This document shows, one piece after another, positions 13,403 through 30,280 of a DNA stretch of 64,000 nt. Below the pieces are notes generated by a model. It made no database searches and was not told the origin of the DNA. It saw only the letters and a program-made list of their open reading frames with translations. The stretch's first letter is position 1. Every line of letters begins with the position of its first letter. Position numbers and translations under genes: made by a program. Origin of the DNA: Negativicutes bacterium (lineage in GTDB: Bacteria > Bacillota > JAAYKD01); NCBI GenBank assembly GCA_021372785.1, contig JAJFTT010000048.1:1-64000 (forward strand), given 5' to 3'.

Positions 13403-14032
13403 ATGGCTAGATATACCGGACCTGTCTGCAGATTGTGCCGCCGCGAGGGCATTAAGCTCTTTTTAAAGAGTGAACGCTGCTATACCGGCAAGTGCGCTCT
13501 GGAGCGCCGTGCCACGATTCCCGGACAACATGGACAGGGTCGTCGCGGTAAAGTATCTGACTATGGTCTGCATTTGCGCGAAAAACAAAAAGCCCGCCGT
13601 ATTTATGGCATCCTGGAAAGTCAATTCCACCGTTACTTCGCCCTCGCCAAACGTAAAAAAGGCGTTGCCGGTGAAAACTTATTACAATTACTGGAATGCC
13701 GTTTAGATAACGTCGTTTATCGTCTTGGTTTTGCCGGCAATCGAATTGAAGCCCGCCAGTTGGTTCGGCACGGACACTTCAAAGTGAACGGTCGTCGGGT
13801 GGATATTCCTTCCTACATTTTGAAAGTAAACGATGTCGTTGAAATCAGATCCAAGAGTCGGGCCAGTGCGAAATTCGTTGGTCTGGTGGAAGCACTCGGA
13901 GCAAAAGCTGTGGTACCTTGGCTGCAGCTGGATGTTGAGAATTTAAAAGGTTTGGTTTTGCGTATTCCAAGCCGTGAAGAAATTGACATTCCGGTAGCCG
14001 AAAACCTGATCATCGAGTTTTATTCCCGTTAA
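13403..14032 (+). CDS. rpsD: 30S ribosomal protein S4, zinc form
   Basis: 209 residues starting [20 protein letters not shown]. Cysteines 9, 12, 26 and 31 form the zinc site of the C+ S4 type. The S4 RNA-binding domain ([20 protein letters not shown]) is in the middle. S4 nucleates 30S assembly and in some species represses the alpha operon. Here it lies between S11 and rpoA. Confidence 0.98.
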
Positions 14033-14062
14033 TGCATTGGGAACAAGTAGGAGGGTTGGCCT

Positions 14063-15022: not shown

Positions 15023-15044
15023 AAGTGACGAAGGAGGGAGAACC

Positions 15045-15413
15045 ATGGGCTATCGTAAATTAGGTCGTAATACCGGACATCGTAAAGCCCTTCTCCGTAA
15101 CCTGGTGACTTCATTATTGGAAATGGAACAAATTGAAACCACGGAAACCCGTGCAAAAGAAGTCAGTTCCATTGCCGAAAAAATGATAACCCTGGGTAAA
15201 AGAGGAGATCTCCATGCTCGCCGTCAGGCTGCCGCCTATCTGACCAAAGAAAGTGTGGCAAAGAAAGTCTTTGACGACGTAGCGAAGCGTTGTGCGACCC
15301 GCCCCGGCGGCTATACACGGATTTTGAAATTAGGCCCCCGGCGCGGGGACGCTGCCCCTATGGTGCTGCTGCAATTGGTGGACGGCAAAGTAGAAGCAGC
15401 CAAAAAGGAATAA
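15045..15413 (+). CDS. rplQ: 50S ribosomal protein L17
   Basis: 122 residues starting [20 protein letters not shown], with the C-terminal [20 protein letters not shown]. Last ribosomal gene of the alpha cluster. GAAGGAGGGAG precedes the ATG; the stop lies 4 bases before ecfA1, so the ECF genes are probably cotranscribed. Confidence 0.98.
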
Positions 15414-15417
15414 GAAG

Positions 15418-16263
15418 ATGACAGGCCAAACTCTGCTGATAGAAACCAGGAACTTGAGCCATGCGTTTCAAGGTCCGGATGATCAGGAGATTCAAGCGCT
15501 TGATTCTGTTAATATGACAATCGCTTCCGGGGAATTTGTGGTGATTTTAGGTGCCAACGGCTCCGGTAAGTCTACCTTGGCCAAACACCTGAACGCTCTG
15601 TTGCTTCCAACGGAAGGAACTGTTTGGGTGGATGGTCTGGATACTGCCAGGGAGGAAGCGCTTTGGACGATTCGGCAAAATGTCGGGATGGTCTTTCAAA
15701 ACCCAGACAATCAGATCGTGGCAACCATCGTAGAAGATGATGTCGCTTTCGGTCCGGAAAACTTAGGGCTTCCCCCTGCTCTCATCCGGGAGCGGGTTGC
15801 GGAAGCCCTTGTCATGGTTGACATGAGTGAATTCAGGCAGCATGCTCCTCATTTATTGTCCGGCGGTCAGAAACAACGTGTGGCAATTGCCGGAATTGTT
15901 GCGATGCGTCCGAAAATTGTCGTTTTGGATGAAGCGACTGCCATGCTGGATCCGCAGGGACGCAGGGAAGTAATGGCGGCGATTCAGCGGCTGCGCAGTG
16001 AAGGGATGACGGTGATTTTGATCACCCATCACATGAACGAGGCGGTCCTGGCGGATCGTATCATCCTGCTGGATCAGGGCCGGATTGTTGACCAGGGCAC
16101 TCCGCATGAAATTTTCCAAAAACGAGAGCAAATGAAGGCATTGGGTTTGGATATTCCTCAGATTGCGCAATTGGCGGCTTTACTGAAGGCCGATCATCTG
16201 ATCGAGCAGGATGATTTGCTTACTGTGGAAGAGATGGTGAAACAATTATGTCCATCATCTTAA
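15418..16263 (+). CDS. ecfA1: ECF transporter ATPase EcfA1
   Basis: 281 residues. ABC ATPase of the general energising module used by many vitamin and metal S components. Walker A GANGSGKST near 42-50, Q-loop FQNPDNQ, signature LSGGQKQR, Walker B IVVLDEATAMLD, then the H-loop ITHH. The reading overlaps ecfA2 by 16 bases. No S component is adjacent, as expected for a shared (group II) module. Confidence 0.95.
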   Translation: MTGQTLLIETRNLSHAFQGPDDQEIQALDSVNMTIASGEFVVILGANGSGKSTLAKHLNALLLPTEGTVWVDGLDTAREEALWTIRQNVGMVFQNPDNQIVATIVEDDVAFGPENLGLPPALIRERVAEALVMVDMSEFRQHAPHLLSGGQKQRVAIAGIVAMRPKIVVLDEATAMLDPQGRREVMAAIQRLRSEGMTVILITHHMNEAVLADRIILLDQGRIVDQGTPHEIFQKREQMKALGLDIPQIAQLAALLKADHLIEQDDLLTVEEMVKQLCPSS

Positions 16264-17105
16264 AAAACGTCGGTCTGGTCTACAGTCCGGGTACTCCTTT
16301 TGCTGCCTTTGCCTTACAAGATATCAATTTGGAAATCGGCAGCGGCAAATTGGTGGCAATCATTGGGCATACCGGTTCCGGAAAATCAACCCTCGTGCAG
16401 GTCATGGCCGGTCTGGAGCAACCCAGCAACGGGGAAGTGACGCTGGACGGTATTGTTTTGTACAAAAAAAGCACAGACAGAAAACAGCTGCGCAGGAAAG
16501 TCGGGATGGTCTTCCAATATCCGGAGCATCAGTTATTTGAAGAAACCGTCGAAAAAGAACTCACTTTCGGTTTGCAGAAACAGGGCAGAGGCGAAGAGGA
16601 AATTCGCGCTCAAATGGAAAAGGCGATGCAGTTTGCCCAATTAGCACCGGATTTGCTCAGCCGGTCCCCTTTTGAATTATCCGGCGGTCAAATGCGGCGA
16701 TTGGCGATTGCTTCCGTCATTGCGATGGAACCGGATTATCTGATTATGGATGAACCGACAGCCGGTCTCGATCCGGCCGGCCGCGACGAGATCTTGAGTG
16801 GTTTGGCCAAATGGCAGCGTCAAACGAAGAAGACAGTCATCTTAGTCTCCCATAGTATGGAGGATGTTGCGAAACTGGCGGAGGAAATTCTGGTGTTAAG
16901 CGATGGCCGCCTGGTGATGTCGGGTGATACGAAGAGTATTTTTGCCCGTGGGGAAGAGCTGCAGCAAGTGGGACTCGATGTTCCGCAGGTAACCGCTTTG
17001 ATGATGGAGTTGAAGCGGAAAGGCTGGCAGGTCCCCACCGATGTGATCAGTGTGGAGGAAGCCTATGCCAGTATTTCCGCACAGCTCAGGAGGGGACGGC
17101 CATGA
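16248..17105 (+). CDS. ecfA2: ECF transporter ATPase EcfA2
   Basis: 285 residues. Second, non-identical ATPase: Walker A GHTGSGKST, Q-loop FQYPEHQLFEETVEKELTFG, signature LSGGQMRR, Walker B LIMDEPTAGLD, H-loop VSHSM. The ETVEKELTFG stretch is typical of EcfA2. Overlaps both neighbours, so the three subunits are translationally coupled. Confidence 0.95.
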   Translation: MSIILKNVGLVYSPGTPFAAFALQDINLEIGSGKLVAIIGHTGSGKSTLVQVMAGLEQPSNGEVTLDGIVLYKKSTDRKQLRRKVGMVFQYPEHQLFEETVEKELTFGLQKQGRGEEEIRAQMEKAMQFAQLAPDLLSRSPFELSGGQMRRLAIASVIAMEPDYLIMDEPTAGLDPAGRDEILSGLAKWQRQTKKTVILVSHSMEDVAKLAEEILVLSDGRLVMSGDTKSIFARGEELQQVGLDVPQVTALMMELKRKGWQVPTDVISVEEAYASISAQLRRGRP

Positions 17106-17938
17106 ATTTATTACGGGGAGTGACCATTGGCCAGCATTATCCTCTCAATTCGCCGATCCATCATCTGGATCCGCGCTTTAAGATTTGTTTTGTGTTTATC
17201 TATATTACGGCACTGTTTACCGCGAACGGGCCGTTCGCCTACACGGTTCTGCTTCTGTTTTGCTTAATGGTCATCTATTTGTCTAAAATCCCTTTTAAGC
17301 TGATTTTGCGGGGGCTGAAGCCTGTCCTATGGATCGTTGGCTTTACCCTGCTCCTGCACAGTTTTAGCACCGCTGAGGGAGAGATCCTCTGGCAATGGTG
17401 GCGGTTCACTCTGTACAGCGGCGGTATTCTGCGCGGTGTGATGATGTCAAGCCGTCTGATTCTGCTGATCAGTCTGACCTCGCTGCTGACCTTAACGACC
17501 TCGCCCATTGCCTTAACCGACGGATTGGAAATGCTGATGAAGCCGTTGCAGCGCTTAGGCTTCCCTGCCCATGAATTGGCGATGATGATGACCATTGCCT
17601 TGCGTTTCGTGCCGACTCTGATTGAAGAAGCGGATAAAATCATCAAAGCGCAGACAGCCAGAGGTGCGGATTTCGAGCAGGGCGGTTTAATTTCCCGCGC
17701 CAAGAATCTGCTGCCTGTCTTGGTTCCTCTCTTCATCAGCGCATTTCGCCGGGCTGATGATCTCGCCATCGCAATGGAAGCACGCTGTTATCGCGGCGGC
17801 GAACACCGCACCCGCATGAAAGAATTGAAAAGCGGCGGCAATGATTGGATTGCCCTGCTGATTCTCTTGGCTTGCTTTACGCTCATTCTTCTACTCAGAC
17901 TGTCCGGGCTGGATGTCTGGCAGGTTGCGGGGAATTAA
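17102..17938 (+). CDS. ecfT: ECF transporter transmembrane subunit EcfT
   Basis: 278 residues, membrane protein. Starts MNLLRGVTIGQHYPLNSPIH with the LDPRFKI segment typical of EcfT. The two coupling-helix motifs are seen as ARGADF (around 187-192) and ARCYRGGEHRTRM (around 228-240), the Ala-Arg-Gly type sites that touch the ATPases. Overlaps ecfA2 by 4 bases. Confidence 0.95.
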   Translation: MNLLRGVTIGQHYPLNSPIHHLDPRFKICFVFIYITALFTANGPFAYTVLLLFCLMVIYLSKIPFKLILRGLKPVLWIVGFTLLLHSFSTAEGEILWQWWRFTLYSGGILRGVMMSSRLILLISLTSLLTLTTSPIALTDGLEMLMKPLQRLGFPAHELAMMMTIALRFVPTLIEEADKIIKAQTARGADFEQGGLISRAKNLLPVLVPLFISAFRRADDLAIAMEARCYRGGEHRTRMKELKSGGNDWIALLILLACFTLILLLRLSGLDVWQVAGN

Positions 17939-17939
17939 T

Positions 17940-18716
17940 ATGAAAAGCATTCGTTTGAATATACAGTATGACGGCAGCCGGTATCACGGCTGGCAGCGTC
18001 AAGCAAATAGTTTGACGATTCAGCAGCTGATTGAAGAAGCTATCACACGGCTAAGCGGGGAAAGCGTTAGTCTCTGCGGGGCAGGCCGTACCGATGCCGG
18101 CGTCCATGCGCTGAATCAATGGGCCAATTTTAAAACAGAAAGTTCCATTCCGGCGGAAAAATGGTCTCTGGCGCTGAATCATATCCTGCCAAGCGATATC
18201 CGCATCATGCATTCCGAAGAGTGTCAGCCGCTCTGGCATGCCCGCTTCGTACCGCATCAAAAGACCTATCGTTATACCATTGAAACGGCTCCGGTGGCTT
18301 CTCCTTTTCGGCAGGCGTATGTCTGGCATCGCCGGGGGGATTTGCAATTCGCCAGCCTGCAGGCGGCCGCAGCGTTGGTGCTGGGAGAGCATGATTTCAG
18401 TGCTTTTTGTGCGTCACATAGCGAAGTGAAGAACAAGGTGCGTCGCGTTGCCGTCTCACAGTGGCGGCAGGAAGACACACGTTTGATCTACAGCATCACC
18501 GGAAACGGGTTTCTCTATAATATGGTTCGTCTGCTGGTTGGATTTATGGTGGAAATCGCTTCCGGTAAGCGGGAGGTGCAACAGATGCAGAGCTTTCTGA
18601 GTGATGCCTGCCATTGTAAAGCCGGCTTTACGGTACCGCCGCAGGGACTTTGTCTGTATGAGATAGTTTATGAAGAAATGCCTGTGCTACTTGACATCAG
18701 CACAAATATTGACTAA
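17940..18716 (+). CDS. truA: tRNA pseudouridine(38-40) synthase TruA
   Basis: 258 residues from ATG 17940 (MKSIRLNIQYDGSRYHGWQR). The catalytic aspartate lies in GAGRTDAGVHALNQ. Modifies the anticodon arm of many tRNAs. The ATG at 17913 would put nine extra residues inside ecfT. Directly follows ecfT (one base gap), which matches gene order in many Bacillota. Its 3' end carries the rplM promoter. Confidence 0.96.
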   Translation: MKSIRLNIQYDGSRYHGWQRQANSLTIQQLIEEAITRLSGESVSLCGAGRTDAGVHALNQWANFKTESSIPAEKWSLALNHILPSDIRIMHSEECQPLWHARFVPHQKTYRYTIETAPVASPFRQAYVWHRRGDLQFASLQAAAALVLGEHDFSAFCASHSEVKNKVRRVAVSQWRQEDTRLIYSITGNGFLYNMVRLLVGFMVEIASGKREVQQMQSFLSDACHCKAGFTVPPQGLCLYEIVYEEMPVLLDISTNID

Positions 18717-18719
18717 AAT
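18691..18719 (+). promoter_or_regulatory. Promoter for rplM-rpsI
   Basis: TTGACA at 18691-18696, a 17-base spacer and TAAAAT at 18714-18719. The -35 box and spacer lie within the end of truA, so the promoter overlaps coding sequence. About 100 bases of untranslated leader follow before rplM; leaders of rplM in Firmicutes can hold an autoregulatory L13-binding structure, but I did not derive a convincing fold here. Confidence 0.75.
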
Positions 18720-18822
18720 AGTAATGTTCTGTATTTCTGTCTTCCGGTAACCCCGATATCTGACGACAGGAAGCGAAAAACCCGTGATATAGCTACTTTG
18801 AAAAATAAACGGAGGGAATACC

Positions 18823-19263
18823 GTGCGTACGACCTATATGGCCAAATCTTCTGAAGTGATCGATAAATGGTGGATCATTGATGCAAGCGGTTTGGTGTTG
18901 GGACGCGTAGCAGCCGATGTGGCGGCAATTCTGCGTGGCAAACACAAACCAACCTTTACTCCTCACGTCAATTGCGGTGATCATGTTATCATTATCAACG
19001 CCGACAAAATTGTTCTGACCGGAAACAAATTGGATCAGAAATTTGACGAGCATTATTCCGGATATTGGAGCGGCTTAAAGCGCGTTCCGTATCGTATTCT
19101 TATGGATAAGCATCCTGAGCGCGCTTTGGAAAATGCCGTCAAAGGCATGTTGCCGCATACTCGTCTTGGCAAACAGATGATGAAAAAATGCCGCATCTAT
19201 GCCAGCCCCGAGCATCCTCATGAAGCACAATGCCCTGAAGTCTGGGCAATCGGCAACAAATAA
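18823..19263 (+). CDS. rplM: 50S ribosomal protein L13
   Basis: 146 residues from GTG 18823 ([20 protein letters not shown]), after GGAGGG. The N-terminus fits the family consensus, and [20 protein letters not shown] is the L13 signature. An early large-subunit assembly protein. Forms a pair with rpsI. Confidence 0.98.
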
Positions 19264-19281
19264 CGAAAGGGAGAAACGACA

Positions 19282-19680
19282 GTGGTACAATATCGCATTA
19301 AAAATTATGCTACCGGCCGCCGCAAGAGTTCTGTGGCTCAGGTTCGTTTGATTCCCGGAACCGGTAATATCATTGTGAATAATCGTGGCATTGACGAATA
19401 TTTCGGTCTTGCCACCTTAAAGCTGATTATTCGTCAACCTTTGGTTCTTACCAAAACCGAAGCGGATTATGATGTCATCTGCAAAGTGGAGGGCGGCGGC
19501 AATTCCGGTCAAGCCGGTGCGATCCGTCATGGTATCTCCCGTGCGCTCTGCTCGATTGATGCGGAAATGCGTCCGACCTTGAAAAAGGCTGGTTTTCTCA
19601 CCCGCGATCAACGGATGAAAGAACGTAAAAAATACGGCTTAAAGAAAGCACGCAAAGCGCCGCAGTTCTCCAAACGTTAA
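19282..19680 (+). CDS. rpsI: 30S ribosomal protein S9
   Basis: 132 residues from GTG 19282. The motif [20 protein letters not shown] and the C-terminal [17 protein letters not shown] (tail reaching P-site tRNA) are diagnostic. 18 bases after rplM; followed by a terminator. Confidence 0.98.
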
Positions 19681-19714
19681 TTCTGCCGCAATCAAAACTT
19701 ACGATCAAAACGCG

Positions 19715-19752
19715 AGCAGTTGTCGGATTGCTGGAATCCGGCAGCTGCTTTT
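19715..19752 (+). terminator. Terminator after rpsI
   Basis: A 14-base stem (19715-19728 with 19736-19749, allowing G-U pairs) closes a short loop and is followed by four Ts. It ends the rplM-rpsI unit. The remaining bases up to 19963 hold only a possible TATAAT at 19848-19853 for the next gene; its -35 box is unclear. Confidence 0.7.
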
Positions 19753-19963
19753 GCATGTACAAAATACGGCCGTCGGTTTCTCGATGCCAGGCGTGCCTGA
19801 CGATTATCACGAATTAGATTGCATAAAAAATAAAATTGATAGATAGGTATAATATTCAGAAGGAATTTTAAAAAAAACGTCAAAACTGTATGTGAAGCTT
19901 GATTAACAGAAAAACGGCAACAACAAAATATCCCAAATCGCAGCGAGGCTAAGGAGGATAAAA

Positions 19964-20815
19964 ATGAAACCATTGATCCTGATCACGGGGGAAGACGAAT
20001 TTGATCCCAAATCGCATAACCCATTTTATTTGATTAAACGCAGTTATGGCACGGCGGTAGCCGGCGCGGGAGGTACGGCAGTGATGCCGCTGGACCCGGT
20101 GTTATGGGCGAGTTACGCCGAAATGGCGGATGGCTTGCTGCTGACCGGCGGTGTGGATGTTCATCCGGCACGTTATCATGAGATCTTCATGGATTATGAT
20201 CCAAACTCCGGCGGACCTGCGCCTTTCGTCATCAGCGTGAGCAGGGACTCCATGGATTTTCTGCTCTGTCAGGCATTTTTGCAGGCGGGCAAGCCAATCA
20301 TGGGAATCGGACGCGGTTTGCAGGTGATCAATGTCATTTTGGGCGGCACCTTAGTGCAGGACATTGCGATTTTGCTGCAACAGGAACACCCGATTGGCCG
20401 GCATCACTGGGTTTCGACAACAAGCGGCAGCCGCTTGCGGCAATTGCTGGGAGAAAAGCTGGAAGTGAACAGCTATCATCACATGGCAGTCAAGATGTTG
20501 GGAAAGGATCTGCAGGTCAGCGCCTGGTCCGAAGATGGTCTGATTGAAGCAATCGAGCATACAAGCCTGCCGGTTTTTGCGGTGCAGTGGCATCCGGAGA
20601 CCTATCGAACCGATGACGAGGAAATTCGGGCCCTGCATGCTGCCGTGACAGAACCGCTCATGACGGCGGATGGCAATGAACTCGCAAAGCAAATCACAGC
20701 GAGCGAACATAAAAAAGCCATTCCGGGTTATCGGACCGATGCGGATGTGGTATTGCCGACCGATAGCGCCTTGTTTAACTACTTTGTTGCTTTATGTAAA
20801 AAGGAGGGCAAATAA
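19964..20815 (+). CDS. Peptidase C26-like class I amidotransferase, nucleophile missing
   Basis: 283 residues, similar to gamma-glutamyl-GABA hydrolases (PuuD family), which cleave gamma-glutamyl amides. The fold motifs are present: LLLTGGVDVHPARY (58-71), the nucleophile elbow at 114-118 and the distal VQWHPE with His210 and Glu212. But the elbow reads GIGRG where the family has GICRG, so the catalytic Cys is Gly116 (codon GGA at 20309-20311, at least two changes from a Cys codon). It should be inactive as a hydrolase. AGGAGGA precedes the ATG. The next gene is a paralogue with an intact Cys, so a partner, binding or regulatory role is possible. Confidence 0.85.
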   Translation: MKPLILITGEDEFDPKSHNPFYLIKRSYGTAVAGAGGTAVMPLDPVLWASYAEMADGLLLTGGVDVHPARYHEIFMDYDPNSGGPAPFVISVSRDSMDFLLCQAFLQAGKPIMGIGRGLQVINVILGGTLVQDIAILLQQEHPIGRHHWVSTTSGSRLRQLLGEKLEVNSYHHMAVKMLGKDLQVSAWSEDGLIEAIEHTSLPVFAVQWHPETYRTDDEEIRALHAAVTEPLMTADGNELAKQITASEHKKAIPGYRTDADVVLPTDSALFNYFVALCKKEGK

Positions 20816-20816
20816 A

Positions 20817-21527
20817 GTGAAAAAACCGATCATAATGATCATGTGGGGAGCTTGTCTGGACAATCAATTTCTCTCTCATGGCATGATGCTGAGCAAAGCC
20901 TACAGTGCGGCAATTACCTCCGGCGGCGGGATTCCGCTCCTGCCTTTGGTGCAAAGCCAAGTGATGGAATATGCCGAACTGGCAGACGGTTTGCTGCTGC
21001 CGGGAGGGATGGGTTATGTGCCGCGCCCTCAATTGGGAAAACATCTGGCGCAGGAACGTTTTTCACGTCAATCGGATTTTGAGAGTAAACTGTATCAGGC
21101 GTTCAAGGCCGCCGGGAAACCGATCCTGGGGATTTGCGCCGGCTGTCAGAAAATCAATTGTGAAGAAGGCGGCACGCTGGAATTGGATTTCCGGCGGAAA
21201 ACCGGCATAGAACATCATCTGGGCAGCAGCCACGCTGTAAAAGCGGCCGCAGGAAGTTTGTTTGCACAATTGTTTGGTGATCACTTTTGGATTAACAGCT
21301 ATCATGGTTATAAAATCAACCAATTGGGTGAAAAGTTAAAAGTGACGCTGCTGTCGCCGGAAGGAATTCCCGAGGGGATCGAGCATTTGGAATACCCCAT
21401 TTTTGGCACACAATGGCATCCCGAACGTATGCGCGGTGATTTCCCCAATCCACCGGAGGGACCGGATACAACGGTGCTTTTTCGTCATTTCATCCGGTTG
21501 TGCGAGGCGCGACGGGATCAAAAATAA
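20817..21527 (+). CDS. Peptidase C26 family gamma-glutamyl hydrolase-like protein
   Basis: 236 residues from GTG 20817, placed after AAGGAGGG at 20801-20808 and one base past the stop of the preceding paralogue. LLLPGGMGY matches the family GGxD region in part. The elbow GICAGCQ gives nucleophile Cys107, followed by a second Cys110; the His/Glu pair is His201/Glu203 in TQWHPE. The triad appears complete, unlike its neighbour. Substrate unknown: gamma-glutamyl amides or peptides are the family expectation. The shared operon suggests the two proteins act together. Confidence 0.82.
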   Translation: MKKPIIMIMWGACLDNQFLSHGMMLSKAYSAAITSGGGIPLLPLVQSQVMEYAELADGLLLPGGMGYVPRPQLGKHLAQERFSRQSDFESKLYQAFKAAGKPILGICAGCQKINCEEGGTLELDFRRKTGIEHHLGSSHAVKAAAGSLFAQLFGDHFWINSYHGYKINQLGEKLKVTLLSPEGIPEGIEHLEYPIFGTQWHPERMRGDFPNPPEGPDTTVLFRHFIRLCEARRDQK

Positions 21528-22042
21528 GTTGGGGAAATTCAAACAATCCGGCAATCCGAAAAAACAACGTCAGAAAACTGCAGTCCGCAGAGTTGAAAAA
21601 GAGAAGACCGGATTATTCTGCTGCCAGGCGAAACGAGTGGCATAATTTTACAGATACCTGCGATTGATCAGAAACCGAAATTAAAAAGTAAAATGAAATT
21701 ATTTAGTTCTAAATATAGCAACGCAGTGCGGATTTTTCGGATACCAAAGTATATTATAAACGTAAAATTATAAAAATACAGGCCGCCACGATCACATCAA
21801 TACCATATTATGTAATTAATATAAAAAAATATTTTATAAAACAAAATCATCAGAGGCATATCGACTAATTCTACGGATAAAATGCATAACCGACCGAAAG
21901 AAATAATATTAAAAAAAAAGGAATTCGAGCTGCAGGTGCATAATGATTAAGAAGACAGATTCCTGTCAATGGTTGTTCTATTTTGCAGGGAATTGATGTG
22001 CGACCATCATAAAACGGAATGCGTTAAAGGAGGAGTGTGACG
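21528..22042 (+). other. AT-rich gap without a gene
   Basis: About 515 bases between the amidotransferase pair and the regulator gene. The middle (about 21660-21930) is much richer in A and T than its surroundings and contains several TATAAA/TAATAT-like words but no convincing -35/-10 pair and no open frame of note on either strand. AT-rich DNA here may hold the promoter region of the regulator. Confidence 0.6.
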
Positions 22043-23374
22043 ATGAAGACAGGGATTGTAGGCCCAAAGATTACTGTTGAAAGAATCATTGCAAATTTGG
22101 AAACCAAAAAGCTCTTTGTTGAATATGTTCCCATCATTTACGACAAACTGCAGGATGCTGTGGCAATGGTGCGGGCGCATATCGGAATCGTGGATAATTT
22201 TTATTTTACCGGTCCGATACCGTACCACTATGTCCGGACAAAAATGAGCTTGCCGTGTCCGGTGGAATATCTTACGGTAGATACGAATGCTTTTGCTGTG
22301 ATGCTGTTTCAGGCCAATTATCATTTCCACTGTGATATCAAAAAGGTGACTGCGGATTTTTATGATAACGTAAATCTTGCCAAAGCGTATAATCTCCTGG
22401 AAATTCCTGCCGCGCAGGTCAAGATTCTGGAAGCGCAATATGATATTTTCGACGATGAATATCCGGAGAAGAACGCGGAATTTCATATTGCCAATATTGC
22501 GGAAGGGAACGCGAATTTCTGTCTGACCGGAACCGTGCGGACTTACGAAATACTGAAAGAGAAAGGATATCCCGTCATTTTAGCCATGCCTTCCCAGGAG
22601 CAGCCTGAAATGCAGATCAATCAGCTGCGGTTGCGTAATGTGATGGCTTTGCGGGATGAAAATGAATCTTCCGTCATTTCCATTGGGGTGGAATACGGAG
22701 TCGAAGAGGAGGGCGCCATTACCACCGAACTGCAGAATTATCAGATCCGCGGACAGATTATGGAGAAGATCTATTATTACGCTCAGAGACTGGATGCAGC
22801 TGTGGAGAAACAGGAGAATGGTGATCTGGTCTATCGCATCTATACCACCAAATCGATTCTGAGCGATGAAACCAGCGGTTACCGAAAGCTGCGCTTGCTG
22901 GATGAATTGCCGGGCCTTTTTGGGGTCACTAAAGTCGGGATTGGCATCGGTCTTGGTAAGACAACGGCAGAAGCAAAGAGAAATGCTGATTTTGGCCGTG
23001 AACGCGCGAGTAATTATGAAAGCGACTGCTTCTTTATTGTCTATGAGGATCAGAAAATCGCCGGACCAATCATCCAGGCCGAAGTGGTCAAAAAGAATGA
23101 AGAAATCAATGGTGAACTCTATTTGATCTCCCGGGATACGCAGGTTGGTTTGGATAAACTGATCATCATCGATGCGGTCCTCGACCAGTATGGGGTTGAC
23201 GTGATCACTCCGGGAGAATTGGCTCGCCTATGCGAATTACCCCTGAACCGAGTCAACCGCCTGATCACCAAACTGGAATCAGCGGGTTACGCCAGAGTTA
23301 TCGGCAAAAAACCGTTGAACGGTTCGGGCCGCCCCAGCCGTCTCGTTCAAATCAACCTGAAAAAGCGGATTTAA
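22043..23374 (+). CDS. Multidomain regulator with cyclase-like fold and winged helix
   Basis: 443 residues; not recognised as a named family. ATG 22043 is 9 bases after GGAGG; a GTG at 22037 is too close. The N-terminal 180 residues look like a ligand-sensing domain (MKTGIVGPKITVERIIANLE...), reminiscent of the PrpR N-terminal sensor type. The middle carries GLGKTTAEAKRNA near residue 303, the pattern of GGDEF-like/GTP-cyclohydrolase-III-like domains with poorly conserved catalytic residues. The last 60 residues form a probable winged helix (ITPGELARLCELPLNRVNRL, then GSGRPSRLVQINL). It reads toward the membrane module downstream and is the obvious candidate to control it. That link is inference. 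Confidence 0.65.
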   Translation: MKTGIVGPKITVERIIANLETKKLFVEYVPIIYDKLQDAVAMVRAHIGIVDNFYFTGPIPYHYVRTKMSLPCPVEYLTVDTNAFAVMLFQANYHFHCDIKKVTADFYDNVNLAKAYNLLEIPAAQVKILEAQYDIFDDEYPEKNAEFHIANIAEGNANFCLTGTVRTYEILKEKGYPVILAMPSQEQPEMQINQLRLRNVMALRDENESSVISIGVEYGVEEEGAITTELQNYQIRGQIMEKIYYYAQRLDAAVEKQENGDLVYRIYTTKSILSDETSGYRKLRLLDELPGLFGVTKVGIGIGLGKTTAEAKRNADFGRERASNYESDCFFIVYEDQKIAGPIIQAEVVKKNEEINGELYLISRDTQVGLDKLIIIDAVLDQYGVDVITPGELARLCELPLNRVNRLITKLESAGYARVIGKKPLNGSGRPSRLVQINLKKRI

Positions 23375-23393
23375 TCCGCTTTTTCGGTTTTTT
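23360..23393 (+). terminator. Terminator overlapping the regulator stop codon
   Basis: AAAAAGCGGAT at 23360-23370 pairs with ATCCGCTTTTT at 23374-23384 around a three-base loop that contains the TAA stop; more Ts follow. The hairpin separates the regulator transcript from the membrane module, which has its own candidate promoter. Confidence 0.75.
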
Positions 23394-23470
23394 GGCAGGG
23401 AGTACCGCTGGCAAAGGAGCGGAAGAATTGAAGGAAGGGTTTGTCGAGTTCAATTTTGCGGAATTATTCG

Positions 23471-23499
23471 TTGATACTTTTTTTACCGCTAGCTATGTA
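23471..23499 (+). promoter_or_regulatory. Candidate promoter of the membrane module
   Basis: TTGATA at 23471-23476, a 17-base spacer and TATGTA at 23494-23499 (TATAAA overlaps just downstream). It lies between the regulator terminator and the first module gene, about 80 bases from its ATG. An imperfect inverted repeat (CAGGCAG...CTGCCTG) follows at about 23521-23556 in the leader and could be an operator; both are inferred from position. Confidence 0.45.
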
Positions 23500-23580
23500 T
23501 AAAATGAAAAGAAATAATGTCAGGCAGACAACCAAACCAGGCATCGGCTGCCTGACAGAACTCAGAATGGAGGATTTGAG

Positions 23581-24366
23581 ATGACCATAATTCCGGGGAA
23601 GATTTTTTCCTTTCTCGTTCTGATTGTGCTGAGTCTGATGACGGTTTATCTGATTAAGAAAATGCAGAAGAGCAGTGAGCCGGTGGATGTCCGGCGCTTG
23701 GCAGGTTTGGACGCGCTGCAGGAAGTGGTTGGCCGCGCTACGGAAACCGGACGTCCCATTCATTACAATCCCGGTATGGGTTCCGTAGAAAGCGCCAGTA
23801 CCGGCGCGCGCGTCCTGGGTGGCATGGAGGTTTTGGGTTGGCTGAGTTACCAATGTGCCCGCTATGATACGCGCCTGATTTCGACTTACTGCGCTCCTTC
23901 CACTTATGCGATCGCGCGCGAAGTCATTCGGAACGGATATGTGCAGGCAGGGAAACCGGAAAGCATGAGCGAAGAAACCGCGCAATTTTTGTCCAGCGAT
24001 CAAATGGCATTTGCCATGGGTGCGGTGGCCATTATGCAGCGGGAACGCATCGCTTCCAATGTGCTGATCGGCAGTTATGGCGCAGAATGTTTGCTGTTGG
24101 CGGAAGCCGGCAATACGCTGGGAGCGATCCAGATTTCCGGTGATACCAATGCTTACCAATTGCCTTTCCTGATTGTGACTTGCGACTATTCTCTGATTGG
24201 CGAAGAACTTTTTGCCGCCGGGGCCGTTTTGAGCAACAACCGCGATGTCTATGGTTCCCTGATCGCGCAGGATTACGGCAAATTGGCCGCCTTGGTCTTG
24301 ATCATCGTCGGCAGCGTGCTGGCGACCTTCGGCAATACGGTTTTAACGAACTTATTCAGCTGGTAG
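23581..24366 (+). CDS. Membrane-anchored protein of unknown function, module gene A
   Basis: 261 residues. One membrane segment at about 6-25 and another at about 236-257 flank a soluble region of roughly 200 residues with PIHYNPGMGSVESASTGARV, a Tyr/Cys-containing STYCAPSTYAIAREVIRNGY and LIGSYGAECLLLAEAG. Similar proteins may be catalogued as DUF6754, but I cannot confirm the name. No known catalytic motif was found. It is followed at 13 bases by a polytopic membrane protein, and the same arrangement (anchored domain plus polytopic protein) recurs in genes C and D. Confidence 0.6.
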   Translation: MTIIPGKIFSFLVLIVLSLMTVYLIKKMQKSSEPVDVRRLAGLDALQEVVGRATETGRPIHYNPGMGSVESASTGARVLGGMEVLGWLSYQCARYDTRLISTYCAPSTYAIAREVIRNGYVQAGKPESMSEETAQFLSSDQMAFAMGAVAIMQRERIASNVLIGSYGAECLLLAEAGNTLGAIQISGDTNAYQLPFLIVTCDYSLIGEELFAAGAVLSNNRDVYGSLIAQDYGKLAALVLIIVGSVLATFGNTVLTNLFSW

Positions 24367-24379
24367 GAGGTGAGCGTAA

Positions 24380-25000
24380 ATGAAAAGAACAGTTCCGTTG
24401 ATCATTGCCTTTTTAGTTGGCATGGGTTTATTGTTGGATAACTTTATTACCTTTGCTCCGTTGAACACTTCCATGGTGACTTTGCGTTCCTGGCTGGTTA
24501 TCATTGCCTTGTTTTCCCTGATGGTAGCGGCGCTCAACCTGCTTATGGTGCATATCCCGCGAATCATGAGACGCAAAGGTACCTGGTCACAGAGTATCGT
24601 CCTGGTTACCTTTATGCTGCTGACCATAATCAGCGGTATTTTCATCGGCACCAAAGGAACCGTCTATCAGACCCTTTATACCGGTATTATGACGCCGGGC
24701 GGCTCTACCGTCAATGCGTTATTGGCTTTTTTTATTGCATCTGCCGCTGTGCGAACCTTCCGGGCGAGAAATCTGGAATCCACGCTTCTCCTGATTACTG
24801 CTATTATTCTGATGCTGTCCAATGTCACCATTGGTAATGCGATCAGTCAGTACATTCCTGTCGTCGGTAATTGGCTGACCAATGTACCGAATGCGACCGC
24901 ACAGCGCGGCTTGATTATTACCAGTTCACTGGCCTTTGTCACCATTAATTTAAGAAACATCCTCGGCTTCAGCACGCAGTGGCTGGGCGGCAAAGATTGA
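24380..25000 (+). CDS. Polytopic membrane protein, module gene B
   Basis: 206 residues with about six membrane segments and short loops; begins MKRTVPLIIAFLVGMGLLLD. The loop HIPRIMRRKGTWSQS is basic and probably cytoplasmic. No transporter signature recognised. GGAGG precedes the ATG at 24380. Spacings of 12-13 bases on both sides show it is part of one operon with genes A, C and D. Confidence 0.6.
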   Translation: MKRTVPLIIAFLVGMGLLLDNFITFAPLNTSMVTLRSWLVIIALFSLMVAALNLLMVHIPRIMRRKGTWSQSIVLVTFMLLTIISGIFIGTKGTVYQTLYTGIMTPGGSTVNALLAFFIASAAVRTFRARNLESTLLLITAIILMLSNVTIGNAISQYIPVVGNWLTNVPNATAQRGLIITSSLAFVTINLRNILGFSTQWLGGKD

Positions 25001-25012
25001 GGGGGCGGGCAA

Positions 25013-25855
25013 ATGAAAAAATTCAACCTATTCGATCCCGACAAAAAGATCACGTATCTCTTGCTCCTGATTATGATCATTTTCCCGTTGATCCATCCTC
25101 TGGGTATCGCCATCAAACCATCGGAAAATACCATTCTTGCTTATAATTATGTGGAATCTTTAAAACCGGGTTCTTCCGTCATTCTTTTTATTGACTTTGG
25201 CATGGGCAACAGTGCCGAACTGACACCGCAGGTGATCGCTTCGTTGAAACACTTTGCCAGGAAAGACCTGAAAGTTTATGCCGCCACGCAAGTGCCGGAA
25301 ATGGCGACCGCTCTCGAAACCTATTTGGAGCAGACCTATGGAGTGATGGGCAAGGTTTACGGTGAAGATTATATCAATCTGGGATATTTTGCCGGGGCAG
25401 AATCCGCCATTGGCGCCATGGGTGACAGCCTGATCGCTGTCTTTAAAAAGGATATCAGAGGCAATGACCTGACCGCCATTCCAATGATGAAAGAGGTTGT
25501 GAAATTACCGGATATCAATGTGGTTTTTGCCGTGACGGCCTCCGGAACCATTCCATTCATCCGTCAGTGCAATGCCAAGTTCGGCATGCCGATTATTTTC
25601 TCGGTCAATGCGGTGATGGGCCCCGCCAATGTGCCTTATGTTCAGTCCGGACAGGCGGTATCCGTGCTGGTAGGCAGCACAGGAGCTGCGCAATATGAGA
25701 CGATGATTGGTGCGCCGGGTACGGCAACCGCTGCCATGGATGCGCAGTCTCTGGCTCATGTTGTGATCATTCTTTTGATTCTTTGGGGTAATATTGGCTA
25801 TTTCGTGGAAAAGCGTCAGAAAAAAGCAAAGAAATCAGCAGAGAAAAAAGCCTAA
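25013..25855 (+). CDS. Membrane-anchored protein of unknown function, module gene C
   Basis: 280 residues. Membrane segments at about 14-34 and 247-266 enclose a soluble domain with alternating strand-helix pattern: GSSVILFIDFGMGNSAELTP, then KVYAATQVPEMATALETYLE and GEDYINLGYFAGAESAIGAM, suggesting a Rossmann-like fold. The C-terminus is a basic tail rich in Lys. The layout parallels gene A, though the sequences are not obviously alike. No enzyme motif could be assigned. Confidence 0.6.
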   Translation: MKKFNLFDPDKKITYLLLLIMIIFPLIHPLGIAIKPSENTILAYNYVESLKPGSSVILFIDFGMGNSAELTPQVIASLKHFARKDLKVYAATQVPEMATALETYLEQTYGVMGKVYGEDYINLGYFAGAESAIGAMGDSLIAVFKKDIRGNDLTAIPMMKEVVKLPDINVVFAVTASGTIPFIRQCNAKFGMPIIFSVNAVMGPANVPYVQSGQAVSVLVGSTGAAQYETMIGAPGTATAAMDAQSLAHVVIILLILWGNIGYFVEKRQKKAKKSAEKKA

Positions 25856-25867
25856 GGAGGTGCACTT

Positions 25868-26482
25868 ATGCAAATCAGTCATAATCCTGTCGTCTGGCTG
25901 GCCGCCTTTGTGACGGTCTCGATCCTCAGTTTCGTTTTCTGGAATGACAGTCCTTTTTATAAATATGTGCAAAGCGCTTATTTAGGCGTAGCTGCTGGTA
26001 TCACGGTGGTGGTTGGCTGGGGCAATTTAAAAAATCAGGTGATTACACCCTTAACAAACGGTGACTTCCGCATGATTGTGCCGATTCTTTTTGGCTGTCT
26101 CTTGTTGGTCCGCTTTATTCCCGGTTTCAACTGGGTCGCACGGTATCCGGTCGCCATCTTAGTCGCCGGCGGCGCCGGTTTGGGCTTAGCCAATACCGTA
26201 CAGGCTCAGTTTGTCAGTCAGATCAAAGCCGCTTTACTGCCTCTCAACAGCGTCAATAATCTGATCATGTTTGTCGGCTTAATCGCTGTGATTGCCTTCT
26301 TTTTCCTGACCGGTCGGACCACGCACGCGATTGAAAAACTAAAACTGGGTTGGCTGACCTATCTTGGCCGTCTTGTTTTGATGGTTGCATTCGGCGCAGC
26401 CTTTGGCACCACGGTCATGGGCCGCTGTTCCATCCTGATTGGCCGCCTGCAGTTCCTTTTGACCGACTTTCTCGGTTTATAA
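25868..26482 (+). CDS. Polytopic membrane protein, module gene D
   Basis: 204 residues with about six membrane segments, including the glycine-rich AILVAGGAGLGLANTVQAQF and a C-terminal MVAFGAAFGTTVMGRCSILI. AAGGAGGTG precedes the ATG. Last gene of the four-gene module; a strong terminator follows. Function unknown. Confidence 0.6.
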   Translation: MQISHNPVVWLAAFVTVSILSFVFWNDSPFYKYVQSAYLGVAAGITVVVGWGNLKNQVITPLTNGDFRMIVPILFGCLLLVRFIPGFNWVARYPVAILVAGGAGLGLANTVQAQFVSQIKAALLPLNSVNNLIMFVGLIAVIAFFFLTGRTTHAIEKLKLGWLTYLGRLVLMVAFGAAFGTTVMGRCSILIGRLQFLLTDFLGL

Positions 26483-26517
26483 AGAAAATTTACTATCAGC
26501 GGGCAGGCTTGCCCTTG

Positions 26518-26565
26518 AAAACGAACATTCTTCCTCTTTGGCGGCAGGAAGGATGTTCGTTTTTC
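26518..26565 (+). terminator. Terminator after the membrane module
   Basis: A long stem (AAAACGAACATTCTTCCT at 26518-26535 with AGGAAGGATGTTCGTTTTT at 26546-26564) ending in a T-run. Very stable; closes the module operon. Confidence 0.88.
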
Positions 26566-26658
26566 GGCAATCGACAGAAAATGCAGGAAAGCGGCAGATC
26601 GGACACGAATTTATAAAGATCGCTCAAGTGGAGCGAAATACGAGCCGGGAGGTTCTTC

Positions 26659-26895
26659 ATGAAGACTTTTTTGGAATATTGTTCCGCTTATTTTAAAAGA
26701 ATGTCCCTCATCGATCACATGCTCTTGAAAGTGAGCATTTTTTCTCTCGCTCTGCTGATCGGGATGATACTTTCACCCAAACAGCGTGATGCAAAGATTA
26801 CCGTGCTCACAGCAATAGTCAGCGCCTCCAGTTTGCTGCTGATCAAAGGATTTCTGCAATTTTTCCGGGCGCACCGTCTCGATGCCATGGAATAA
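26659..26895 (+). CDS. Small two-helix membrane protein
   Basis: 78 residues with two hydrophobic segments (about 22-41 and 50-68) and a basic end. It resembles, in size and layout, small Clostridia proteins labelled as phosphate ABC transporter permease-like, but that label has no functional weight. GGGAGG precedes the ATG. It ends 2 bases before the signal peptidase gene, so the two are likely cotranscribed. Confidence 0.6.
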   Translation: MKTFLEYCSAYFKRMSLIDHMLLKVSIFSLALLIGMILSPKQRDAKITVLTAIVSASSLLLIKGFLQFFRAHRLDAME

Positions 26896-26897
26896 GC

Positions 26898-27335
26898 ATG
26901 TTAATCAGCAGTATCGAACAAACGATAGCGGAAAAAGGCAGTTTATTGATCATAACGCATGGTCACAGTATGTGGCCGTTGCTGCGCGGCGGCAAAGATC
27001 CGGTTTGCTTAAAAAAGCCGGCGATTTTACGCAAATATGATGTCGTACTCTTTCGGCGCGATCACGCCGGGCTCGTTCTGCATCGTATTGTTGCCGTCGG
27101 TCAAGACAGAAGATGCCTTGTCTGCGGTGATGCGGAAAGTGGCCGGGAGTGGATCCGTCCCGAGCAGGTAAAAGCGGTTATGGATGGTTTTTATCGCGGA
27201 AAAACCTATATCAGCTGCGGTCATCCGCTTTATCGGATTTATGTACAACTTGTGTGCGCCGCTTATCCGCTGCGGGTCTGGCTGCTTTGTCTGCGCGCTT
27301 TGTTTGCTAAAAAAACTGTCGCCGGCAAAAAATAA
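26898..27335 (+). CDS. S24/S26 family signal peptidase-like protein (SipW type)
   Basis: 145 residues. Nucleophile Ser24 in GHSMWPLL, followed by KYDVVLFRR and LVLHRIVAV with His62 where Lys sits in the usual P-type signal peptidase; His marks the ER/SipW type. CGDAES matches the later GDN box. Family enzymes cleave signal peptides at the membrane; here no N-terminal anchor precedes the catalytic box, but a hydrophobic stretch at about 113-133 could anchor the C-terminus. The substrate is not apparent. Confidence 0.75.
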   Translation: MLISSIEQTIAEKGSLLIITHGHSMWPLLRGGKDPVCLKKPAILRKYDVVLFRRDHAGLVLHRIVAVGQDRRCLVCGDAESGREWIRPEQVKAVMDGFYRGKTYISCGHPLYRIYVQLVCAAYPLRVWLLCLRALFAKKTVAGKK

Positions 27336-27363
27336 ACATAAAATCGAGTGGGAGTGCGCAAGG

Positions 27364-27447
27364 TTGAAGTTTCAGACCAGACTTTTTGATTTTGACGGGA
27401 CCTTGACCGATCCTGTGATCGGCATTACCAATTCTATTATCGAGTAA
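27364..27447 (+). pseudogene. 5' fragment of a HAD phosphatase, cut by an insertion
   Basis: From TTG 27364 the frame encodes KFQTRLFDFDGTLTDPVIGI then TNSI, the N-terminus of phosphoglycolate-phosphatase-like HAD enzymes with the nucleophile motif DFDGTLTD. It then runs into the IS200/IS605 end and stops at 27445. The rest of the gene is recognisable, much decayed, at 29181-29460. Confidence 0.8.
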
Positions 27448-27457
27448 AGCCGTAAAA

Positions 27458-27478
27458 CCCCTTGCTTTAGCTGTGGGG
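27458..27478 (+). repeat. Left-end palindrome of the IS200/IS605 element
   Basis: A 21-base imperfect palindrome running from CCCCTTGC to GTGGGG. It differs by one base from the copy at 29157-29177. Such hairpins are the TnpA recognition structures in this family. Confidence 0.8.
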
Positions 27479-27536
27479 ATATCAGGCTTTCCGCAACTTC
27501 TTAATAATATATGGAGACATGATGTAGAATACAAAT

Positions 27537-28042
27537 ATGAAATATCAATCAAATCAAAATGTCGTCTACTCGAGCAAATATGCAAATATCATGTGGTTTG
27601 GTGTCCTGAATATCGGCGAAAAGTTCTGACGGGAACAATAGAGGCTCGTTTGAAAGAGGTGCTGATTGAAACGGGCAATTCTATAAAAATCGATATCATT
27701 GAAATGGAGATCATGCCGGATCAGGTGCGGTTGCTGCTTGAAGCTGATCCTCAGTACGGCGTTCATAAGGCAATTCAACATTTGAAAGGACGAAGCTCAT
27801 TTGTATTATGCAGCGAGTTTAAGGAATTGACAACGAAGCTGCCTACTCTTTGGACGAATTCATATTTTGTTTTTACTGTTGGAGGAGCATCTCCCGACGC
27901 TATCAGAAATAGATTGAAGATCAAAAAACATCGCAAAGGAAGTGAAAAGCATGGAACGGGCATACAAATTTCGGATATACCCCAACAGAGAACAAGAAAT
28001 ACTCATTCAAAAAACTTTTGGTTGCGCTCGTTTCGTGCCTAA
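27537..28042 (+). pseudogene. tnpA: tnpA, Y1 HUH transposase, frameshifted and catalytically altered
   Basis: The N-terminus MKYQSNQNVVYSSKY starts at ATG 27537; the remainder (YHVVWCPEYRRKVL onward) is in another frame. The shift is explained by an 8-base tandem duplication, GCAAATAT twice at 27574-27581 and 27582-27589; deleting one copy restores YSSKYHVVW. In the downstream part the HUH motif expected as PDHVHLLLE reads PDQVRLLLE, and the catalytic Tyr expected in a KQYIENQ-like segment reads RNRLKIK. So the protein is dead by three independent criteria. The open frame runs on into tnpB. Confidence 0.85.
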
Positions 28043-29072
28043 TCACTACTGAGCGAAGTGGATTGAATTGTATGAAAAAGACAAATCTTCGTTGTCATAC
28101 CATGCTTGTTCTACCGACCTGACCGGTTTAAAAAAAGAAATCGCATGGCTTCAAGAAGTGGATTCAACCGCTTTGCAATCGTCATTGAAGGATTTAGATT
28201 CTGCCGATCAAAATTTCTTTCGCAGAGGAAAACAAGGCGAAGGCAAAGCAGGCTTTCCTAAATTCAAAAGTAAACAGAATCACCGGAAGTCCTATAAGAG
28301 CAAGATGAGCATTTCAATCCGCGACAAAACTGTGAAACTCCCGAAATTGGGCTTCGTTGCATGCCGTGTCAGCAAACAAATTGAGGGCAGAATACTCAGC
28401 GCGACAGTTTCTCAGAATCCTTCCGGCAAATACTTTGTGTCGCTCTGCTGCACCGGGGTCGAGAGTAAGCCGTTGACAAAAACAGGCTTAAGCATCGGAA
28501 TCGACTTAGGTATGAAAGACTTCGTTGTTACGTCCGACACACCTCCATTTCCGAATCACAAATTTCTCGCCAAGTCCTTAGAAAAACTTCGCCTATTTCA
28601 ACGCTTACTATCCCGAAAAACAAAGGGTAGCAACAACTGGAACAAGGCAAGAATCAAAGTGGCAAGACTCCATGAACAAGTTGCAAATCAGAGAAGTGAT
28701 CTGCAGCTTACGCTTTCTACACAGCTCATTCAAGACTATGATCTCATTGCGATTGAAGATTTAACCGTCAAAAATATGGTCAAAAATCGGAGACTGGCGA
28801 GATCAGTCAGTGATGTGTCGTGGAGTGAATTTGTCCGACAGTTGGAGTATAAGGCTGTATGGTATGGCAAGCGGGTTGTTAGAGTGGATCAATACTTCCC
28901 TTCAAGTCAACTTTGCTCTGCATGCGGATATCAAAATCCCGAAACGAAAAATCTTGCCATTCGCAACCGGACTTGTCCTGTCTGTGGAGCAGTTCACGAC
29001 AGAGATGTGAACGCAGCAATCAACATTTTGCATGAAGGGATACCGGTTAGTCACTACTTAAAAAACAGGTAA
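27951..29072 (+). pseudogene. tnpB: tnpB, RNA-guided nuclease, with one in-frame stop
   Basis: MERAYKFRIYPNREQEILIQ from ATG 27951, then after codon 33 a TGA at 28050-28052 where relatives have a Leu (NHY-L-AKxIELYEK), a single base change from TTG. The frame is otherwise open to TAA 29072. The RuvC residues are intact: Asp185 (GIDLGMKD), Glu269 (IAIEDLTVKN) and Asp352 (HDRDVNAA), as is the zinc finger with CSACGY and CPVCGA. A restart downstream would lose only the N-terminal part. TnpB proteins use the transposon-end RNA as guide. Confidence 0.88.
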
Positions 29073-29180
29073 TACCGTGGGATGCACGGAAATTCACGCT
29101 TGAGGAGATTGCATCAACTTCGCTGGAAGCCATGCAGCGGTCGATTAACCAAGAATCCCCTTGCTTTAGCTATGGGGATT
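29073..29180 (+). ncRNA. Probable omega (re) RNA scaffold at the element's right end
   Basis: The 108 bases after tnpB match the position and layout of the guide RNA of IS605-type TnpB: the end of tnpB, then a structured stretch (CTTCGCTGGAAGCCATGCAG region around 29118-29137), then the right-end palindrome. The guide would be the flanking sequence after about 29180, inside the old HAD gene. The RNA probably also includes the tnpB 3' end. Expression is not shown by sequence. Confidence 0.5.
29157..29177 (+). repeat. Right-end palindrome of the IS200/IS605 element
   Basis: 21 bases, CCCCTTGC to ATGGGG, one mismatch to the left copy. Followed within a few bases by the resumption of HAD-like coding sequence. 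Confidence 0.8.
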
Positions 29181-29460
29181 GTCAACTCTGCTCTCCAATA
29201 GTTTCAGGTCACTGTCAATGATCGGAACGAAGGATATCGCCTGATCGGATTACCCCTGCTGCTTGCTCCCCTGCGCTTTTACGGGTTTTCCCCCGGTAGA
29301 AGCTGCCCAAACCGTTACGTTCCAGCGGGAGTATCGCAGTAAAAAAGCTGATTTGGGCATACAGCTGATCAGGGTATGGCGGAACTGACGGCTGCTTTGC
29401 AAAGCGCAGGCAAAACGCTGCCGCGCAAATCCTTTTCCACCAATCAGAGAAAGCGGGATA
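29181..29460 (+). pseudogene. 3' remnant of the HAD phosphatase
   Basis: After the element, fragments in shifting frames match the middle of a phosphoglycolate-phosphatase-like protein: NSALQ, IGLPLLLAPLRFYGFSP, then EAAQTVTFQREYRSKK, then QGMAELTAALQSAGKTL. Internal stops and at least two frameshifts are needed. Most of the C-terminal half is gone. The decay suggests the insertion is old. Confidence 0.7.
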
Positions 29461-29464
29461 TCAA

Positions 29465-30280
29465 ATGAATCAAGTCGCAGCTTTGCCGCCGCAGTGGCTG
29501 AAAAAAGCCAAAGTGCTTATCTTGGATCTGGATGGCACCATCTATCTGGGCGGACGGCTTTTCCCTTTTACGCAGCGCTCTTTACAGGAAATCAGCGACA
29601 GCGGCCGGCGTTATGTCTTTTTCACCAACAATTCTTCCCGCAGTGTGACGGATTATCGGGAAAAATTGGCATCTATGGGCGTCAAAACCGCAGAGAATCA
29701 GCTCTATAACGCAACACAGGTTTTATTAGAGGTTTTGCAGCAAAGACAGACAATCCCTACTGTTTTTGTAGTCGGTACGCAAAGCTTGCAAAAAGAATTC
29801 AGCCGGGCGGGATTTCAATGCAGTACGGCTGCCGATCTTGTCGTCCTGGGTTTTGATACGGAGCTGACCTATGATAAAGTAAAGACAGCCTGCGATTTAA
29901 TTCGGCAGGGAGTGCCGGTCGTCGGGATCAATCCGGACTTGAATTGCCCGGTGGAGAACGGCTTTCTGCCCGATTGCGGTTCCATTGCCGCCCTGATCAC
30001 GGCTTCGACCGCTGTCAAAGTGGAGTTTTACGGCAAACCGAGCCGCTCTACCTTGGAGTTTCTCCTACGAAAAACCGGCGTCCGCGAGGAAGAGCTCATT
30101 TTTGTCGGTGACCGCCTTTATACGGATATCGCGATCACAGAGGGCAGCCGGGCGCACAGTGTTTTGGTTTATTCCGGTGAGACAAAAAAAGGCTCCGCCG
30201 AAAATTCGCAGTGCAAGCCGGATTTGGCTTGCGCAAATTTGGCAGAGCTGACTGCGCTGCTGAAAAAAGCAGACGGTTAA
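29465..30280 (+). CDS. HAD-IIA family phosphatase (NagD-like)
   Basis: 271 residues. Nucleophile motif LDLDGTIYLGG near 19-29 (family form DxDGxxxxG), the FFTNNSSRS motif II, the capping domain with FVVGTQSL, and the acidic motif FVGDRLYTDIAIT. Members dephosphorylate sugar phosphates, 2-phosphoglycolate or nucleotides; the substrate here is unknown. Its TAA shares the TTAA word with the stop of the convergent gene. Confidence 0.85.
   Translation: MNQVAALPPQWLKKAKVLILDLDGTIYLGGRLFPFTQRSLQEISDSGRRYVFFTNNSSRSVTDYREKLASMGVKTAENQLYNATQVLLEVLQQRQTIPTVFVVGTQSLQKEFSRAGFQCSTAADLVVLGFDTELTYDKVKTACDLIRQGVPVVGINPDLNCPVENGFLPDCGSIAALITASTAVKVEFYGKPSRSTLEFLLRKTGVREEELIFVGDRLYTDIAITEGSRAHSVLVYSGETKKGSAENSQCKPDLACANLAELTALLKKADG

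Follow-up and report, generated by a model that had tools for sequence, protein, structure and literature searches.

The locus described here raises the question of what four adjacent genes, A to D, of a Negativicutes bacterium (GCA_021372785.1; genome G000) make together, and whether the regulator gene R just upstream belongs with them. The genes lie in a stretch of 64,000 nucleotides (contig JAJFTT010000048.1, positions 1–64,000), referred to as the window below. A first-pass annotation of this stretch had read all five genes as one undescribed system. It was found that A-B-C-D is a very stable, obligatory cassette that belongs with a separate cluster of partner genes around a MutL-like ATPase, while R is most likely a chance neighbour. 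With a confidence somewhat short of even, the four proteins are taken here to form the membrane portion of an ATPase-linked machine not described before, for which transport by several specialised copies is the likeliest role. The genes are:

23581–24366, + strand: gene A, 261 amino acids, a DUF6754 protein
24380–25000, + strand: gene B, 206 amino acids, a six-helix membrane protein
25013–25855, + strand: gene C, 280 amino acids, predicted as an extracytoplasmic alpha/beta core between two transmembrane helices
25868–26482, + strand: gene D, 204 amino acids, a six-helix membrane protein

Protein A is a member of Pfam family PF20539 (DUF6754; E = 1.3e-73, 247.8 bits against a cut-off of 27). 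No Pfam or NCBIfam match above cut-off was obtained for B, C or D, nor any significant match in the PDB, and the profiles of B and D hit no PDB chain at E < 0.5. The first-pass annotation had placed five genes in this region, all of which are confirmed by open reading frames at those coordinates, and its spacing of 12–13 bases agrees with intergenic gaps of 13 (A-B), 12 (B-C) and 12 (C-D). That it recognised no transporter, enzyme or secretion signature in A–D agrees with the searches of Pfam, NCBIfam and the PDB. The suggestion that related families may be catalogued as DUF entries applies to A; B, C and D are uncatalogued. It had further described two units of the same design, and this is borne out, as in both A and C a soluble core is enclosed by two membrane segments, and B and D have six segments each; the picture is now refined by an opposite predicted orientation of the two units in the membrane. 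The view that the four genes form an undescribed membrane module is supported both by these profile searches and by the recurrence of the gene order.

This recurrence was established by gene calling around 33 loci of the same phylum and around 80 loci taken on from a scan of 84,980 species genomes, in which at least 577 encoded relatives were found. About 110 cassettes, spread over more than 15 phyla, show the order A-B-C-D, which is far above chance. Nearly every locus that is not cut by a contig end has the four genes in this one order and on one strand, often in tandem arrays. The hosts among the 80 loci include Bacillota, Zixibacteria, WOR-3, Stahlbacteria, Cloacimonadota, Latescibacterota, Poribacteria, Elusimicrobia, Eisenbacteria, Fermentibacteria/Aegiribacteria, Edwardsbacteria, BRC1, Bdellovibrionales, Nitrospirae, one archaeal bin and others. 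The orthologous cassette of the sister genome G001 is 78% (A), 72% (B), 68% (C) and 79% (D) identical. Copies are numerous: the window's genome has four DUF6754 genes and five C homologues, and relatives carry up to ten cassettes (ten in a 2-Mb genome). A phage or plasmid origin was considered and dropped, as no relatives of the cassette were present among the viral contigs, plasmids and phages searched.

The partners of the cassette were found by clustering the neighbouring genes across the cassette loci. Three families recur beside cassettes in several phyla: c0, a MutL/GlmL-type ATPase; c1, a protein of about 375 residues with a putative RnfC_N/NqrA-like barrel-sandwich and KOW features; and c4, a small soluble protein. 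A small membrane protein, c7, is encoded 5' of c4. Co-occurrence was then counted by Fisher test in the same 200 genomes used for the cassette search, 15 of which carry the cassette. All 14 genomes with c4 are cassette carriers (P = 1.3e-20), as are 13 of the 14 genomes that have both c1 and a MutL-like protein above 500 bits (P = 1.6e-17), with the proviso that these genomes are related and the P values therefore overstate their independence. The c7 gene occurs in 11 genomes, all of them carriers. At the family level, the seven families with c4 are exactly the seven with the cassette. The association extends to other phyla, since c1 was present in 38 of 40 cassette genomes sampled from them, in 36 at E < 1e-140. 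The system is taken to consist of A–D with c0, c1, c4 and often c7, and confidence in this composition is high. The window's own genome carries the partner cluster on another contig:

G000:C72:44756–48978 (L188:8754–13042): partner cluster

The same contig also carries a lone C homologue (L188:1621–2472), 6–7 kb from the partner cluster.

The partner ATPase of the window's genome matches the whole MutL/GlmL profile (PF13941, the methylaspartate mutase accessory protein GlmL; positions 1–450 of 450, E = 2.2e-127), yet it is about 130 residues longer. With the equivalog model for GlmL of glutamate mutase (NF040745, cut-off 475), a homologue at another locus (L050) reaches 235.8 bits and falls short. 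The partner ATPases form a separate high-scoring group, whereas other MutL-type proteins of the phylum reach about 200 bits or less. Both phosphate-binding motifs, DCGSTTTK and GVDIGGATTD, are kept in the consensus, which makes the use of ATP likely. RnfC_N (PF13375) matches occur in three c1-type genes near cassettes; the c1 proteins of L052 and L188 have no Pfam match at E 0.001. The fourteenth genome with c1, G010, has no cassette, and beside its intact c1 the MutL-like protein lacks model positions 96–222 in frame (L200, G010:C18:122000–125400), an exception that speaks for the proposed link. Two more pairs of MutL-like and c1-like genes, without c4, were noticed in the window's genome (G000:C24:10951–14018 and G000:C34:211–4116; L189, L190), and such extra pairs are also present in several cassette genomes.

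The arrangement of the four proteins in the membrane was predicted from positive-inside charge counts over homologue alignments (116–133 homologues per gene). In A, the first membrane segment lies at about 8–30 and the second at about 232–250; the loop between them is placed inside and both ends outside in 130 of 133 homologues. The reverse is predicted for C, with both ends inside and the core outside (117 of 120). The six-helix proteins behave in the same way: the charge bias places both ends of B inside (123 of 123) and both ends of D outside (111 of 116). These opposite orientations make A and C, and likewise B and D, mirror images in orientation. It is thus highly probable, as far as charge bias can tell, that the core of A is cytosolic and that of C external, with the ends of B in and those of D out. 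The A+B and C+D halves are predicted to have opposite orientations in a pseudo-symmetric core of 16 helices. A cytosolic position of the DUF6754 core is also in keeping with an independent feature: the A proteins of diderm phyla frequently have, ahead of the first helix, a start resembling a signal peptide and an additional domain, an extension of up to about 950 amino acids before the DUF6754 core. A fibronectin-III-like look of this extension was noted by eye only, and Pfam gave no match in two examples. Some A proteins of Cloacimonadota and Mcinerneyibacteriota are about 960–1160 residues long, with very long extracytoplasmic extensions (L145:114–2984, L156:5832–8756 and L162:567–4049).

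Single-chain AlphaFold models were obtained for A (predicted local distance difference test, pLDDT, 94.8; predicted template modelling score, pTM, 0.88) and C (pLDDT 95.4, pTM 0.89). Both cores show the same succession of helices and strands between two membrane helices. In a profile comparison the first halves of A and C aligned in register and beat reversed controls (P 0.004–0.015) at a probability below 10%; this alignment is too weak to prove sequence homology between A and C. For B and D, the profile scores were no better than those of reversed controls, and homology was not adopted for them. Neither the A nor the C fold matched a PDB entry with E < 0.001, the TM-scores were low and the only resemblance was a weak Rossmann-like one. 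For this reason, the similarities of A and C to LOG and molybdenum cofactor (Moco) carrier proteins and to dehydrogenases were not used as identifications. Polar positions conserved in at least 95% of sequences across phyla number 15 in A, 4 in C, 3 in B and 1 in D. Those of A, many of which lie at strand ends, include R52, E55, E169, E175, Q193, D202, E208 and E209. The contrast between 15 positions in A and 4 in C hints at a shared site for a ligand or partner that faces the cytosol, with greater variability on the external face.

In the proposed machine, the cytosolic ATPase set would dock on the A core, and ATP would be used to drive the membrane core or to gate it. The core of C and, in diderms, the secreted N-terminal extension of A would face the substrate, and one ATPase set would serve several cassette paralogues of differing specificity. 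The presence of several cassettes per ATPase cluster, together with hydrolase genes beside the Bacillota cassettes, favours amide- or peptide-like solutes as the cargo of the specialised copies, which is put forward tentatively. The hydrolase link comes from a comparison of 88 genes near cassettes with 110 far genes. The near set contains seven amidohydrolases, four C26 peptidases, two M20 peptidases and two DUF885 proteins, and none of these is among the 25 commonest families (at least 2 members) of the far set. No ATP-binding cassette (ABC) family is among the commonest near neighbours.

Several points weigh against such a transporter. The evidence from neighbouring hydrolases is of modest strength, extends only to Bacillota and in part reflects shared ancestry. 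No transport substrate, known transporter fold or binding-protein gene was found, and we know of no precedent for ATP-driven transport by the MutL-like ATPase superfamily. That the two clusters build one physical machine is a proposal from their co-occurrence. Two genomes also depart from the pattern. G020 (78% complete) carries the cassette without c1 and the MutL-like protein. In G095 (L061) the sole cassette is divergent (A 20%, C 23% identical), with partial loss of the conserved A residues, and c1, c4 and a high-scoring MutL are all missing. The G095 cassette adjoins tsaE-tsaB-rimI-tsaD, genes next to which the partner cluster of the related genome G130 also lies.

Known systems resemble parts of this arrangement. 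Group II energy-coupling factor (ECF) transporters combine a shared energising module with many membrane cassettes, and the system described here likewise has one ATPase set per genome and several membrane cassettes. Unlike in ABC and ECF transporters, the partner is an ASKHA-type ATPase and not a P-loop ABC protein, and the membrane subunits are unrelated by family search. The DUF6754 entry covers A, while the four-gene cassette, the mirror topology and the ATPase cluster lie outside it. DUF6754 is thus already catalogued without function, and no known family that was tested fits the whole system. A bolder reading, regarded as rather doubtful, is that of a new machine class, in which an ASKHA-fold ATPase would act through an RnfC_N/KOW adaptor and small helpers to drive a pseudo-symmetric core of two opposed pairs, with cassettes multiplied per substrate.

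Other explanations have to be weighed against a transporter. One is an envelope scaffold or assembly machine, comparable with PilM or GspL, which are actin-fold partners of membrane platforms: the actin-like-fold ATPase, c7 and A–D would span the envelope and organise surface structures without moving solutes. The long extracytoplasmic extension of diderm A proteins and TonB-receptor-like genes downstream in Fermentibacteria/Aegiribacteria would suit such an assembly machine, but genes for pilins, secretins or peptidoglycan-binding proteins do not recur beside the cassettes, and up to ten paralogous cassettes in a small genome better suit substrate variants; it is judged unlikely. The 15 near-invariant polar residues of A could instead belong to an enzyme or ligand sensor, with B–D as membrane partners of a membrane-bound enzyme or nucleotide-signal module. 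The best Foldseek matches of A, a Moco carrier and LOG proteins, point the same way at insignificant scores (E about 0.01). Yet A shows none of the catalytic motifs of known families and three more membrane genes are strictly conserved with it, which leaves little probability for such a module.

An ion-translocating energy converter resembling Rnf or Na+-NQR is suggested by RnfC_N matches among c1-type neighbours, by a weak match of c1 to NqrA (E about 0.2) and by the predicted opposite orientation of B and D. The last feature recalls NqrD/NqrE, an inverted six-helix pair of the Na+-translocating NADH:quinone oxidoreductase (Na+-NQR). However, B and D have no sequence relation to Nqr or Rnf chains, and a PDB library that contains Nqr structures gave no match to their profiles. 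C201 of A is the sole conserved cysteine, no flavin, Fe-S or other redox subunit is present and the partner is an ATPase. Such a converter is therefore considered improbable.

The remaining alternative is the model of the first-pass annotation, in which R would sense a ligand and control A–D as one functional unit. R and the signals and genes around it are:

start 22037 or 22043, end 23374, + strand: regulator R, an adjoining gene, no part of the A–D system
23357–23387, + strand: R terminator, a 14-pair stem and T6 (-19.9 kcal/mol, z -4.9)
about 26517–26565, + strand: intrinsic terminator of the cassette, 3' of D (-27 kcal/mol, z -5.1, then a T-run)
19964–20815, + strand: upstream Peptidase_C26 gene, gamma-glutamyl-hydrolase-like (PF07722, E = 2.5e-48)
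20670–21527, + strand: second Peptidase_C26 gene (PF07722, E = 1.8e-32)

R has an N-terminal sensor-like region, a GTP-cyclohydrolase-III-like domain (about 217–329) and a C-terminal winged helix (about 366–413). The latter two had been named from the sequence and are confirmed by PDB profile matches (2qv6, E = 3.2e-8; 3cta, E = 2.2e-5); R shares this pair of domains with a family of regulators and is no component of the A–D system. Adjacency of R and A–D speaks for one unit in this window only. Among the 200 genomes R occurs in 11, namely in 2 of 15 with the cassette and 9 of 185 without it (P = 0.19), so that the regulator and module were not found to stay together. In G001 no R is present within 7 kb of the orthologous cassette, and the R orthologue (62%) lies on another contig beside an M20 peptidase. 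R homologues elsewhere adjoin M20 peptidases, AbgT, DcuC and SSF transporters, an amino-acid-type carbamoyltransferase and similar genes. As R rarely shares genomes with the cassette and sits beside M20 peptidases elsewhere, it is no partner, and joint control of this kind is very improbable. The most probable role of R is to regulate the catabolism of peptides or amides. R and D each have their own strong terminator, so that R and A–D look like separate transcription units. A strong terminator and an own promoter had been claimed for the cassette; the terminator stands, but the promoter is a visual candidate only, as promoter-like matches in the region are at chance level (8 found, 8.3 expected). 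No Rfam riboswitch match was found within 18000–30000.

The surroundings of the cassette offer some further observations. The sister genome shows the same synteny: at L049, Peptidase_C26 homologues likewise lie 5' of the orthologous cassette. The open reading frame of the second Peptidase_C26 gene overlaps the preceding gene at its start, and the true start is probably further in. Genes for rpsD, rpoA, two ABC ATPases with CbiQ, truA and rplM lie upstream of the cassette at 13403–19260. An oligopeptide ABC transporter was first suspected here and was replaced by an ECF module (CbiQ and two ATPases) amid ribosomal-protein genes. Downstream, at 27473–29072, two adjacent open reading frames resemble by eye an IS200/IS605-type transposase (189 amino acids) and a TnpB-like protein (334 amino acids). 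In Fermentithermobacillaceae, genes of about 1260 residues lie just upstream of the cassette (L096:3944–7756 and L097:1257–5027); the ribonucleotide reductase, intein and LAGLIDADG matches of the near set (2 members each) most likely come from them.

No paper on DUF6754, PF20539 or PF13941 was found in a literature search with thin coverage of subscription journals and preprints. The association of this membrane complex with a specific ATPase cluster in more than 15 mostly uncultured phyla points to a widespread machine that has been overlooked. The analysis defines a set of eight genes and places both DUF6754 and one branch of the MutL/GlmL ATPases in a setting from which a function may be sought. 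The predicted architecture is unusual in that two halves of similar design are mutually inverted and come from separate, diverged genes. If the bolder reading as a new machine class is true, the system would represent a mechanism of energised transport unlike those of ABC, ECF, P-type or TonB-linked systems.

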